Source of the DNA: a virus
IMG/VR virus record: IMGVR_UViG_3300039048_000028
Coordinates: 1 to 38,884 of that record
Direction: 5' to 3' (one strand)
DNA: 38,884 nucleotides
This document shows, piece after piece, positions 3,932-35,763 of this stretch (position 1 is its first letter; each line of letters begins with the position of its first letter). The notes beneath the pieces are model-generated. The model saw only the letters and a list, made by a program, of their open reading frames with translations. It was not told the origin of the DNA and did no database searches. Both the position numbers and the translations under genes were made by a program.

Positions 3932-5391
3932 TGCAAGTACCTTTTGGAGAATGGCTACCAGATCAACCTGACCATGGAAAACAAGGAGCAAATGTTGCTA
4001 CTAATGTTTATCATGCATTAAATACTTATAAAAGATTTCCATCTTTAGTAGCTTATAGTTCAAATACTACAAGCACAGATTCTAAAGGTGCAGGTTCATT
4101 TAGAGATAACTCTAATACAGTTTATAACTTTGTAGCTACAAGAACAAATATTTATCAGTTAACTTCAGGAGCTTTTACATCACGTAAAGCAAGTTTAACT
4201 GGTGGACATACAGATTTTTGGACATTCACACAATTTGGTGAATATGTAATAGCAAGTAATGGAGTAGATGCACCACAATATTATTTAATGGGAACATCAA
4301 CTAACTTTGCTAATCTTAGTGCAATTCAAACTGCAGGAACAGTTCCTACATTTAGAGTTTCAGGAGTTGTTCGAGACTTTTTAGTTACAGGAAATATTAC
4401 AAACGCAACAAACAGAATTCAATGGTCAGGCATTAATGATATTACTGTCTGGTCTGGTAAACAATCTGATTCACAAGATCTTCCAGGATCTGGTGGTCAG
4501 GTAGTAGCTATAACTTCTGGAGAGGTTGGATATGTGTTTAGACAAAACCAAATAATTCGTATGGACTATGTTGGTGGAGCTACAGTATTTAGGCTATCAG
4601 TTATATCTCCAAACAGAGGAGCTGTATATGGAAGAACAGTTTGTCAAGATAATAGACAAATATTCTTTTATGCTGATGATGGTTTCTATCAAATAAATGG
4701 TGATCAAATTATGCCTATTGGTGTAGAAAAAGTTAATAGATATTTTGATCTTAATTTAAACAAAGCATACTCAGATAGAATTTGTGCAGCAGTAGATCCA
4801 TTTAACCAATTAGCTATGTGGTTATTTCCAAGTACATCAAACGCAGCTAATACAACAGGTATTTGCGATAAAATAATTATTTATAATTATGCTACTAAGA
4901 AATGGTCTTTAGCAAATGCTAATGCTAGTACAATATTCTCACAGTTTGTTGGAGCTTATACTGTAGAATTAATGGATATTTTATCTCAAAACTTAGAAAA
5001 TATTAATGCTGCATTAGATACAGATTTCTGGTCAGGTGGACAAGTTCTACTTGGTGGAATTGATAGTGATTACAAAGCTGCAATTTTTTCAGGAACAGAT
5101 AATGAATGCGAAGTAGAAACAGCAGAAATAGAACCTTTTCCTGGAATGAGAGCTAATATAACAGGTGTTAGACCTATTGTAGATGCAACAGCAACATTAA
5201 CAGTAAAAGCTAGAGAACGATTAGCAGATACAGAATCTGAAACAAGTTCAGTTTCTATGAGAGATAGTGGAATTAATCCAGTTAGAAAATCTGGAAGATA
5301 TATAAGAGCAAATGTAAAAGTACCATCAGGTACTACATTTACTCACGCACAAGGAATAGACCTTGTAGCATCAAGAGCAGGAGTAAGATAA
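3931..5391 (+). CDS. Tail tube/stabilisation protein (gp10- or gp12-like)
   Basis: 486 aa. It opens with VPFGEWLPDQPDHGKQGA and Y-R-P-type residues (YKRFPSLVAYS), as in the phage tail/packaged-DNA-stabilisation proteins that follow the adaptor. Repeated short beta segments with FVATRTNIYQL, YVIASNGVDAPQYY and FRQNQIIRMDYVGG suggest a beta-propeller. A helical insertion (~345-360) and a C-terminal beta domain follow. Family assignment is by pattern and gene order (adaptor, then this), not by alignment. Confidence 0.7.
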   Translation: MQVPFGEWLPDQPDHGKQGANVATNVYHALNTYKRFPSLVAYSSNTTSTDSKGAGSFRDNSNTVYNFVATRTNIYQLTSGAFTSRKASLTGGHTDFWTFTQFGEYVIASNGVDAPQYYLMGTSTNFANLSAIQTAGTVPTFRVSGVVRDFLVTGNITNATNRIQWSGINDITVWSGKQSDSQDLPGSGGQVVAITSGEVGYVFRQNQIIRMDYVGGATVFRLSVISPNRGAVYGRTVCQDNRQIFFYADDGFYQINGDQIMPIGVEKVNRYFDLNLNKAYSDRICAAVDPFNQLAMWLFPSTSNAANTTGICDKIIIYNYATKKWSLANANASTIFSQFVGAYTVELMDILSQNLENINAALDTDFWSGGQVLLGGIDSDYKAAIFSGTDNECEVETAEIEPFPGMRANITGVRPIVDATATLTVKARERLADTESETSSVSMRDSGINPVRKSGRYIRANVKVPSGTTFTHAQGIDLVASRAGVR

Positions 5392-27480: not shown

Positions 27481-27814
27481 CTGGGCGAGCTACGCCAACA
27501 AGTGACGACTTCTTTTACAGTAATCTAGAATTACCAACTCGTTACCCAGTTAAATTTTAAAGGACACACCATTAATCTAATTAGGAAACCCATGCAGTAT
27601 CTTGCGTGCTCATCCTGCTTAGTCTAGACCGAGATGTAGGGTGATGTGTCCATCAAAATTTAGGTAAGGTAGTGGAAAAAGAACCTTTCGGTGGTATACC
27701 ATAACAATCTCACTACCTCACAGGAGCTAACGAACCTGCCAGTCTCCCAGCAGGCTCTATCTACTTATTTGGTCATATGATTTGATCACTAAGAACTTAG
27801 CCAAATAAGATAGA
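27479..27814 (-). ncRNA. Candidate structured RNA A (five helical domains)
   Basis: Gene-free stretch of ~336 nt between convergent genes, richer in GC than its surroundings (24 of 60 bases at 27661-27720). Five abutting domains, 5' to 3' on the minus strand: P5 27814-27801/27772-27756 (14 bp, 3-nt bulge); P4 27757-27750/27739-27732 (8 bp); P3 27721-27711/27674-27664 (11 bp, closing an ACC-GAAA-GGT hairpin); P2 27662-27645/27568-27551 (8 + 7 bp with a near-continuous internal loop); P1 27551-27538/27489-27479 (11 bp with a 3-nt bulge). P2, P3 and P4 each contain one G-U pair only if read as minus-strand RNA; on the plus strand the same positions are A-C mismatches. Matches no RNA class I know. 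Confidence 0.72.
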
Positions 27815-27827
27815 ATTTATAAAATTT

Positions 27828-33404: not shown

Positions 33405-33740
33405 TTATCCTTTATTTTTAATTTTTGAAGTTTCAAAAACTATACTATCATCATCAAAATCATGTAGTTCTTCTTGTACATATGGTATTGGACAAGTCAT
33501 AAGCCACTCTCTAAATTCATTATATTTAAATTTCTTTTGAGTTGCTTGAGGCGTTGATCTCCAAACATTATTTACAGTACATTCTTTAGCACCTATTATT
33601 TTTCGAAGATTACTTATATTACTCTCTATATTATCTAATATTTTTACAGATACTGGATCTTGCCATGGATCTTTACCTTTCCAATCTTGATCTATTTTAA
33701 AATCAAATATCATTTCTACACACATTAAGTTTTTACTCAT
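33405..33740 (-). CDS. Hypothetical 111-aa protein, first gene after terminator B
   Basis: AAGGAGGATAT site. MCVEMIFDFKIDQDWKGKDP, IESNISNLRKIIGAKECTVN, EFREWLMTCPIPYVQEELHD. It lies ~50 bases beyond a strong intrinsic terminator, so the downstream leftward genes need either read-through or a promoter in that gap. No family recognised. Confidence 0.57.
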   Translation of the reverse strand: MSKNLMCVEMIFDFKIDQDWKGKDPWQDPVSVKILDNIESNISNLRKIIGAKECTVNNVWRSTPQATQKKFKYNEFREWLMTCPIPYVQEELHDFDDDSIVFETSKIKNKG

Positions 33741-33791
33741 ATATCCTCCTTATTAAAGAGCCGAATCTTCGATTCGACATTATTGTTTTTT

Positions 33792-33828
33792 AAAAAAAAA
33801 CTAGGCGACTCATTGGGCTGTCGCCTAG
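33792..33828 (-). terminator. Intrinsic terminator, minus strand
   Basis: On the minus strand: CTAGGCGAC, a 10-nt loop, GTCGCCTAG (perfect 9-bp stem, 33828-33801) followed immediately by nine T (33800-33792). This is the clearest terminator in the window. It ends transcription coming from 35288 and defines the 3' end of structured region B. Confidence 0.9.
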
Positions 33829-34340
33829 TAAATTAGATATTTCAGAAGGCTCTATCAGTTAATGACTTAAGAGTTCTTATATCTGATTCTAAATATCCCT
33901 CATTTATTCTATATATCTCACTCGCCAACAGGTTTCCTTACTCCAGTCAAAGACTGAAACGCCTTGCATTTCGAAATACAAGGACTGCTGTTGAAATCCT
34001 AAGGGTTGTTAGTATAATGTAAGTGTAATACTAGATAGTCTCTTAAGATTACCTACTATATGTGCGTCCTTATCCTAAAGCATTGTTGCCCAGTACGACT
34101 CAAACTTGGTAGACTAACTTCCAAGATTTTTCACACACTCTGTAGTGGCTTACCACTCATACCAGATGGTTGTTTCACCCAGCGAGAGAGATATACAGGA
34201 TTTGTAAAATTATTTAATGAATACTTACAGCGTCATCATTTACCATTTTTATCTGTAAGTGCATTGCAGTGGAAAAATGGTGAACAAACCACATATTCAT
34301 TAACAGGCAATCGCCTGCCGAGTAGGCACAGGCGATAGCC
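33792..34340 (-). ncRNA. Candidate large structured RNA B (~550 nt)
   Basis: Gene-free 608-base gap. Visible pairing (plus coordinates): hairpin 34306-34317/34329-34340 (8 + 3 bp around one mismatch); 10-bp helix 34214-34223/34294-34303 enclosing an H-type pseudoknot (8 bp 34223-34230/34253-34260; 12 bp 34239-34250/34273-34284, one C-A mismatch on this strand); hairpins at 34144-34157, 34105-34125 and 34010-34033; three-way junction 33926-33993; long hairpin 33835-33884; then the terminator. Loop 34111-34116 is complementary to 34036-34041. Strand call rests on the terminator and a U-G pair at 33967/33978. Size and ornate style recall GOLLD/ROOL RNAs; class not established. Confidence 0.75.
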
Positions 34341-34348
34341 AGTTCTTC

Positions 34349-34570
34349 TTACTTCACTAATTTATCAGTTTTCGCTTTTAGCAAAGTTTCTAATGTCTCA
34401 ACTCTTTTCTCAAGAACACCAACACGAATAGTCGCTTGATTCTCTTGTATCCAAGTAGATCTAGACTTATATTTTGGATTGCCTAGTGCTATTTGTTGTT
34501 CCACATATGCTCTCCTTTCTTCAGGTGATTTAGACTCCCTGTAAGAAACGAATGGTTGTTGTGTAGACAT
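34349..34570 (-). CDS. Hypothetical 73-aa protein with C-terminal coil
   Basis: AGGAGGATATAT site. MSTQQPFVSYRESKSPEERR, then a coil VGVLEKRVETLETLLKAKTD. Ends 9 bases before the first hairpin of region B. No family recognised. Confidence 0.58.
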   Translation of the reverse strand: MSTQQPFVSYRESKSPEERRAYVEQQIALGNPKYKSRSTWIQENQATIRVGVLEKRVETLETLLKAKTDKLVK

Positions 34571-35288: not shown

Positions 35289-35306
35289 ATATATCTCCTA
35301 TATTAT

Positions 35307-35737
35307 GTGCATTCGATTTAACCCTTCGAATTAGCACTTATTAGTATGTCTATTGATACATCAGTAATCAAGATAACTATATATATCAATAGTTTGAGTC
35401 ATATTCGGTAATCGATTAATCAACTGATTTCGCCAAGAGTTAATCGACTACCTAATATATTAACAACAATTAGTTCTTGCTGTGTACTTCAGCGACTTCG
35501 ACACGACAGCACAACGATGACTGTCCATTGATAACAATTCAAGTGTCGATAGTCGACAGCAAGAAATAATTATAAACAAACAGAGACAAATCTTTGATTT
35601 GACAATGACGACAAATAAGACAGCGATTTATCGCTGACATTGAATTCGATGGGTTTTGAATTCACCCCAATCAATCCGACATTTATGTCGATTGTTTGTA
35701 TAGGGGGGTTTTATACGAATAGACTCCAAGTGGGTCT
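35307..35737. promoter_or_regulatory. Divergent intergenic region with ~10 tandem hairpins (region C)
   Basis: The 475-base gap between divergent operons (35289-35763) has no gene. Perfect or near-perfect inverted repeats follow one another: 35307-35337, 35350-35392 (9 bp), 35407-35452 (13 bp, one G-U if minus-strand RNA), 35475-35564 (9 + 4 + 6 bp, then a three-way junction), 35587-35601, 35621-35636, 35641-35664 (7 bp), 35672-35694 (10 bp), 35698-35716, 35721-35737. Short GACAA words recur at 35586, 35601 and 35610. I see no convincing sigma-70 promoter. Candidates: long 5' leaders, a third RNA, or an origin. Confidence 0.6.
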
Positions 35738-35763
35738 TTAACAACAACAACAGGAGAAATAAT

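Follow-up and report, generated by a model that had tools for sequence, protein, structure and literature searches.

The 608-nt gap at positions 33741-34348 of the window, by which is meant the whole 38,884-base stretch of DNA that was analysed (IMG/VR virus record IMGVR_UViG_3300039048_000028), was found to encode a structured noncoding RNA on the minus strand, and both its structure and its strand are well supported. The homologue searches and the comparative structural analysis support the conclusion that the 289-nt core of this RNA represents a previously undescribed RNA family of marine phages.

Organization of the RNA locus

The gap is located between minus-strand open reading frames at 33405-33740 and 34349-34570 in the ORF list, and the RNA locus sits inside a leftward operon of small genes, in an early position. 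The phage encodes a Terminase_6N-type large subunit (TerL), which is closest to that of Pelagibacter phage HTVC106P (50% identity), followed by that of Methylophilales phage Venkman EXVC282S (49% identity).

A preliminary description of this DNA had proposed that the gap is without credible coding potential and carries a single ornate RNA of about 550 nt, with an elevated local GC content and a minus-strand intrinsic terminator. The gap was confirmed at 608 nt; a 92-aa plus-strand ORF (34060-34338) is present in the window and is broken in the homologous locus L004 (homologous loci are designated by L numbers), and no reading frame was found to be conserved across the members compared. The GC content is 0.377 in the RNA and 0.401 in the core, compared with 0.286 and 0.314 in the flanking genes. 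The terminator is also present at 33829-33792 and is a strong one, with a 10-bp stem and a U-tract; it was missed by a simple terminator scanner, whose loop limit was 8 nt against a loop of 10 nt. The proposal of a structured minus-strand RNA was therefore retained, but not that of a single 550-nt unit, because the locus consists of the core and separable modules, as follows, in 5' to 3' order of the RNA except that parts are listed under the core or arm to which they belong.

34306-34340, minus strand: 5' hairpin, GGC-UAUCGCCUG..CAGGCGAU-UGCC; equivalent strong hairpins lie ahead of the core in most members
34215-34302, minus strand: separable 88-nt element, with interleaved helices ACCAUUUU/AAAAUGGU crossing CUUACAG/CUGUAAG, within the outer helix UAAUGAAUA/UAUUCAUUA
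33909-34197, minus strand: conserved core of the new family, 289 nt, 178 bits with covariance model R1
34182-34197, minus strand: P1 5' strand (P1a 34197-34188, conserved U 34187, P1b 34186-34182)
33910-33925, minus strand: P1 3' strand (P1b 33925-33921, conserved U 33920 in a U.U mismatch, P1a 33919-33910)
34147-34179, minus strand: P2 arm (P2a 34179-34177/34149-34147; P2b 34170-34167/34155-34152)
34157-34163, minus strand: pseudoknot 5' strand GGUAUGA in the P2 loop, with covariation
34011-34017, minus strand: pseudoknot 3' strand UUAUACU, pairing with 34157-34163
34034-34146 (approximate limits), minus strand: P3 domain and start of P4, a large variant common to L004, L184 and L181
33926-33993, minus strand: P5 arm, in which CAACAG (33993-33988) pairs with CUGUUG (33931-33926) and encloses P5a and P5b
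33962-33983, minus strand: P5a hairpin, with the palindromic tip UUCGAA (33975-33970), a proposed self-kissing loop
33940-33960, minus strand: P5b hairpin, with a UUU loop in the window
33830-33908, minus strand: 3' domain, window/L004 type; the tail modules at this place differ in other phages
33792-33829, minus strand: intrinsic terminator, ACTAGGCGAC-10 nt-GTCGCCTAGT followed by a U-tract (10-bp stem, 10-nt loop)

The minus strand at 33790-34348 was predicted to fold with -157.1 kcal/mol, compared with -130.6 +/- 6.2 for shuffled sequences (z -4.3), and none of 100 shuffles was as good. The plus strand of the same region also folds well (z -4.9), and folding energy alone therefore shows structure, not strand. 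The strand was assigned as minus because the scores of the homologue model, the P5b loops and the G.U pairs fit that strand. In L184, the model scored 177 bits on the RNA strand versus 28 on the opposite strand. The P5b loops in homologues are GAAA, GCAA, UUCG or small and U-rich, the GNRA and UUCG loops fitting the minus strand only, and G.U pairs that replace Watson-Crick pairs exist on the minus strand only. The minus-strand G.U pair (C.A on the plus strand) pointed out earlier at 33967/33978 is present, and a C-G pair occupies the same position in L004.

The signs of expression as RNA are the terminator and the features specific to the minus strand. No clear promoter was found directly upstream of the RNA in the window. 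A sigma-70-like site (TTGAAA-16-TATAAT, 33991-34018, plus strand, 11/12 match) lies antisense to the core and may be due to chance; 12 sites were found versus 10.2 expected.

Homologues and consensus structure of the core

The first relative, L004, was reached via a 73-aa neighbour gene. Use of a conserved downstream protein family (A2) as the query yielded 60 loci, some of them with a related RNA at the same place, and a motif scan identified further members, including some in other gene contexts. The family contains 19 distinct aligned sequences and one more in L267, all from IMG/VR marine phage contigs; this total of at least 20 members is a lower bound, as the scans required exact motifs. 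With covariance model R1, members scored 148-231 bits and other places at most 24 bits. Most cores are 226-257 nt long (overall range 226-289), and as a rule there is one copy per record. Members in L262 (IMGVR 3300030117_005342) and in L233, L255 and L242 were observed amid quite different genes, and a protein of L233 resembles proteins of Roseobacter, Pelagibacter and Caulobacter phages.

Several individual queries were uninformative: motif TTCAACAGCAGTCC gave, among the matches listed, chance matches only; motif GGGCAACAATGCTTTA gave chance coding matches in addition to L004; and the P2 pattern gave one chance match in genome contigs, in Lacticigenium, which lacked the remaining core parts. 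The sequence CCTGTTGGCGAGTGAGA matched L004 only.

No homologue was found when the window RNA and the L249 and L255 cores were compared with INPHARED by blastn, and the isolate genomes HTVC106P, Venkman EXVC282S and HTVC010P contain no copy of the core. Rfam 15 gave no match at the gathering cut-off in the window or in 19 related loci, and E-value scans (E <= 10 for the window region; also L210 and L249) gave chance matches only, in agreement with the earlier impression that the RNA belongs to no known class. The GOLLD model (RF02032) did not match the window at E <= 10; nor did the ROOL model (RF03087) give a match, either in a direct search that had no working positive control or when all Rfam models were run on the region at E <= 10. 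Of the two options that the preliminary description had offered, a new class or a diverged member of a class such as GOLLD or ROOL, the former was thus supported and the latter was not, both models being negative. Among open-licence papers, none was found to describe an RNA of this kind in pelagiphages or other marine phages.

Comparison of the members showed a core fold that is closed by P1 and pseudoknotted, with variable P3 and P4 and a two-hairpin P5 arm, and showed selection for structure, not protein. The named structure contains 46 pairs, including the pseudoknot, and is 96.5% paired across the 19 distinct sequences, compared with 78.5% +/- 0.8 in shuffles and at most 47.5% with slid partners. 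Compensatory double changes occur at 36 of the 46 pairs, versus 18.7 +/- 2.2 in shuffles, and none of 500 shuffles reached the observed values on any of the five measures, these pair counts being subject to the caveat that the structure was partly read off the alignment used for counting. The covariation across homologues for which the preliminary description had called was thus found.

P1 consists of 10 pairs, a conserved U.U mismatch and 5 pairs; all 285 of its 285 cells are paired, and double changes were found at 10 of its 15 pairs. P2a and P2b are both 100% paired, with double changes, and the P2 arm contains a conserved asymmetric internal loop, GAANA/AA. All seven pairs of the pseudoknot between the P2 loop and a strand approximately 90-150 nt downstream have double changes, and the pseudoknot is 93.2% paired, some of the misfits (L255) arising where a perfect helix is displaced by one column in the alignment. 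P5 is located directly on P1 and comprises six pairs, which are 100% paired and five of which have double changes. The sizes of P3 and P4 depend on the subtype, and covariation is seen within subtypes. When the window was compared with L004, both bases differed in 11 of the 120 predicted pairs, and no pair was broken.

A minimum-energy alternative, in which the 5' strand of P1b pairs with the P2 loop, was rejected as the consensus: it is not retained in the types of the window and L186, whereas covariation of P1b and of the pseudoknot is seen in every subtype.

Exchange of the core and of its neighbouring modules

Comparison of related phages showed the core to be an exchangeable accessory cassette. 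L250 and L239 share 98.8% identity in their upstream flanks and 92.5% in their downstream flanks, while their cores are 74% identical and of different subtypes; the cores of L212 and L214 are 97% identical and their flanks approximately 66% identical. In L002, the leader is 97% identical and ordinary genes are found in place of the core. Furthermore, of the 36 distinct loci whose sequence extends far enough upstream of the shared anchor gene, only nine carry the core, which is therefore regarded as a dispensable, accessory element.

The 88-nt element is found without the core in L002 (4095-4182) and downstream of the core in L178 (4577-4665), and is absent from L004. One of its helices covaries, CUUACAG/CUGUAAG being replaced by CCUACAG/CUGUAGG in L178, and the interleaved helices are likely to form a double pseudoknot. 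Tail modules are inserted exactly at the 3' base of P1: L006, L210 and L214 run from P1 straight into TAACAATAACATAGGAG (with one difference in L214), and two different modules are inserted at this position in L217 and L212. Since the 88-nt element, the core and the tail modules change in position or presence, the locus can be described as a site at which structured RNA modules are exchanged.

Phages were also seen to exchange at least three more structured tail modules, whose boundaries fall exactly at P1. One, which follows the core in L184, L181, L217 and L267, contains a terminator; one, in L212 and L267, has an apparent H-type pseudoknot (UCCUA/UAGGA x GCCUAC/GUAGGC); and one, in L250, L257 and L239, is closed by UAGUCUAGG/CCUAGACUA. 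In L267, at approximately 1190-1300, a second P1 3' strand and terminator tail are located after a run of N, beyond the first core and a gene, apparently representing two cores in one operon. In addition, a GC-rich hairpin without a U-tract follows the gene of the 73-aa family (L009, L013, L007, L008, L002 at 4700-4790, and others); it is present even where there is no RNA core and may be a processing or stability element.

Proposed self-association and possible roles of the RNA

The tip of P5a is a six-base palindrome in all 20 members, UUGCAA in 17 and UUCGAA in three (the window, L184 and L181), and no single-change intermediate between the two was found among the 20. The tip sequence is found once per core and nowhere else in the core, which makes an intramolecular partner unlikely. 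In the tree, the window groups with L004 (UUGCAA), apart from L184 and L181, near which the internal branches are weakly supported. Because the window and its sister L004 differ, and L184 and L181 form a separate branch, the tip would have switched at least twice, the evidence for switching comprising few independent events. In a cryo-EM study of OLE, ROOL and GOLLD, palindrome switches at adjacent nucleotides were taken as evidence of intermolecular pairing, and such a GC/CG switch occurs in GOLLD L21a (PMC12286853). By analogy, we infer that the core RNA is probably able to pair with its own copies via the palindromic P5a loop.

The explanation considered probable, with moderate confidence, is that the locus encodes a phage RNA of the new family that is trans-acting, self-associating and early, with a possible scaffold or decoy role. 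The RNA would be transcribed together with the leftward small-gene operon, and the terminator, or processing in the members without one, would free a stable RNA that would act in trans and associate with itself through the P5a loop. Against this explanation, many members have no obvious terminator, and some of the members may act inside an mRNA. In the least certain step, the RNA might bind a macromolecule of the host or the phage during infection, as an RNA-based scaffold or decoy. Nearly identical phages often have one core replaced by another, which suggests a changing partner, for example a host factor or a defence; an antagonistic partner behind the rapid exchange of subtypes is a conjecture. 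A related and decidedly more tentative proposal is that the swapping of this self-associating, pseudoknotted cassette RNA within module arrays reflects conflict with hosts or competitors, that is, RNA counter-defence or competition.

Alternatively, the RNA might be a cis-acting regulator (riboswitch, attenuator or antiterminator) of the downstream operon genes, which is considered unlikely. The RNA is co-directional with the operon and inside it, in an early leftward position, and a terminator follows the core in the window, L184, L181 and L217, as would suit such a regulator. However, this terminator is part of an exchangeable tail that is absent from L006, L210, L214, L186 and L246. Furthermore, there is no constant class of downstream gene, since the gene encodes 111 aa in the window and 82 aa in L004 and is different again in L006, L178, L257 and L262, and the L233/L255 type and L262 occur in unrelated gene contexts.

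It is improbable that the RNA is a selfish or mobile element, whether ribozyme-like or retro-mobile, that spreads between phages with little benefit to them. The precise module edges at helix bases, the changes of context and the presence or absence of the core among near-identical phages would be consistent with mobility, but no encoded protein, disrupted exon or target-site pattern was found, there is as a rule one copy per record, and recombination at shared flanking hairpins and helices accounts for the mosaic without self-mobility. Because the riboswitch and the intron or mobile-element readings are both argued against, the trans-acting reading was favoured.

That the RNA is a diverged GOLLD or ROOL member is very improbable: its location in a phage, ornate pseudoknotted fold and likely self-association are reminiscent of both, but the Rfam scans of the window region, L210 and L249 gave chance matches only, the direct searches were negative, the core is much smaller, and there are no tRNA genes in the window or in 21 member loci. 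Least credible of all is a short protein-coding gene, or a DNA-level element whose inverted repeats mimic RNA, as the 92-aa plus-strand ORF and the good folding of the plus strand might suggest, because the ORF is broken in L004 with no frame kept in the family, compensatory changes keep G.U pairs possible only on the minus strand, and the GNRA and UUCG loops form only there.

The trans-acting, self-associating RNA proposed here can be compared with several known RNAs. GOLLD and ROOL are large ornate phage RNAs for which, to our knowledge, no function has been established. GOLLD is frequently, although not universally, found in the neighbourhood of tRNA genes and forms a homomultimeric 14-mer cage, ROOL forms a homo-octameric nanocage, and the phi29 pRNA, a small RNA, self-associates through pairing between loops. 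The core, with its pseudoknot and proposed kissing loop, resembles ROOL, a noncoding RNA of phages or prophages with pseudoknots and conserved kissing loops, and differs in giving no model match, in its smaller size and in not being near tRNA genes. Like GOLLD, it is phage-encoded and ornate, without a known protein partner, and has a palindromic loop with a GC/CG switch (PMC12286853); many GOLLD RNAs exceed 800 nt, in contrast to the 226-289 nt found here, and the helices differ, with no tRNA nearby. OLE is similar in that it is proposed to form a homodimer via a loop that changes from one palindrome to another (PMC12286853), but it is larger, has protein partners and is found in extremophilic Gram-positive bacteria, and no Rfam match to it was obtained here. 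Multimerisation of the phi29 pRNA is mentioned in the same study (PMC12286853); the pRNA works with a phi29-type packaging ATPase, whereas the window phage has a Terminase_6N-type TerL, and the structures differ. The manA, wcaG and PhotoRC-II RNAs are likewise structured RNAs of marine phages, tied to particular downstream genes (PMC2864571), whereas the RNA described here has no Rfam match and no fixed downstream gene.

With cores of 226-289 nt, the family is compact. It is carried by marine phages related to pelagiphages and provides a natural set of subtypes swapped within near-constant backgrounds. Its size brings the core within reach of chemical probing, mass photometry and cryo-EM, and the GC/CG switch at the P5a tip would allow selection for self-association to be tested cleanly. 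The multi-module RNA arrays in one operon suggest that ocean phages carry more functional RNA than has been annotated.

Two other gaps of the window were also observed to fold well. The 347-nt gap at 27481-27827 (minus strand) has no good ORF (z -3.9) and possibly encodes another structured RNA, and the gap at 35289-35763, which separates divergent operons and contains many inverted repeats (z -6.9), is probably a control region with operators.
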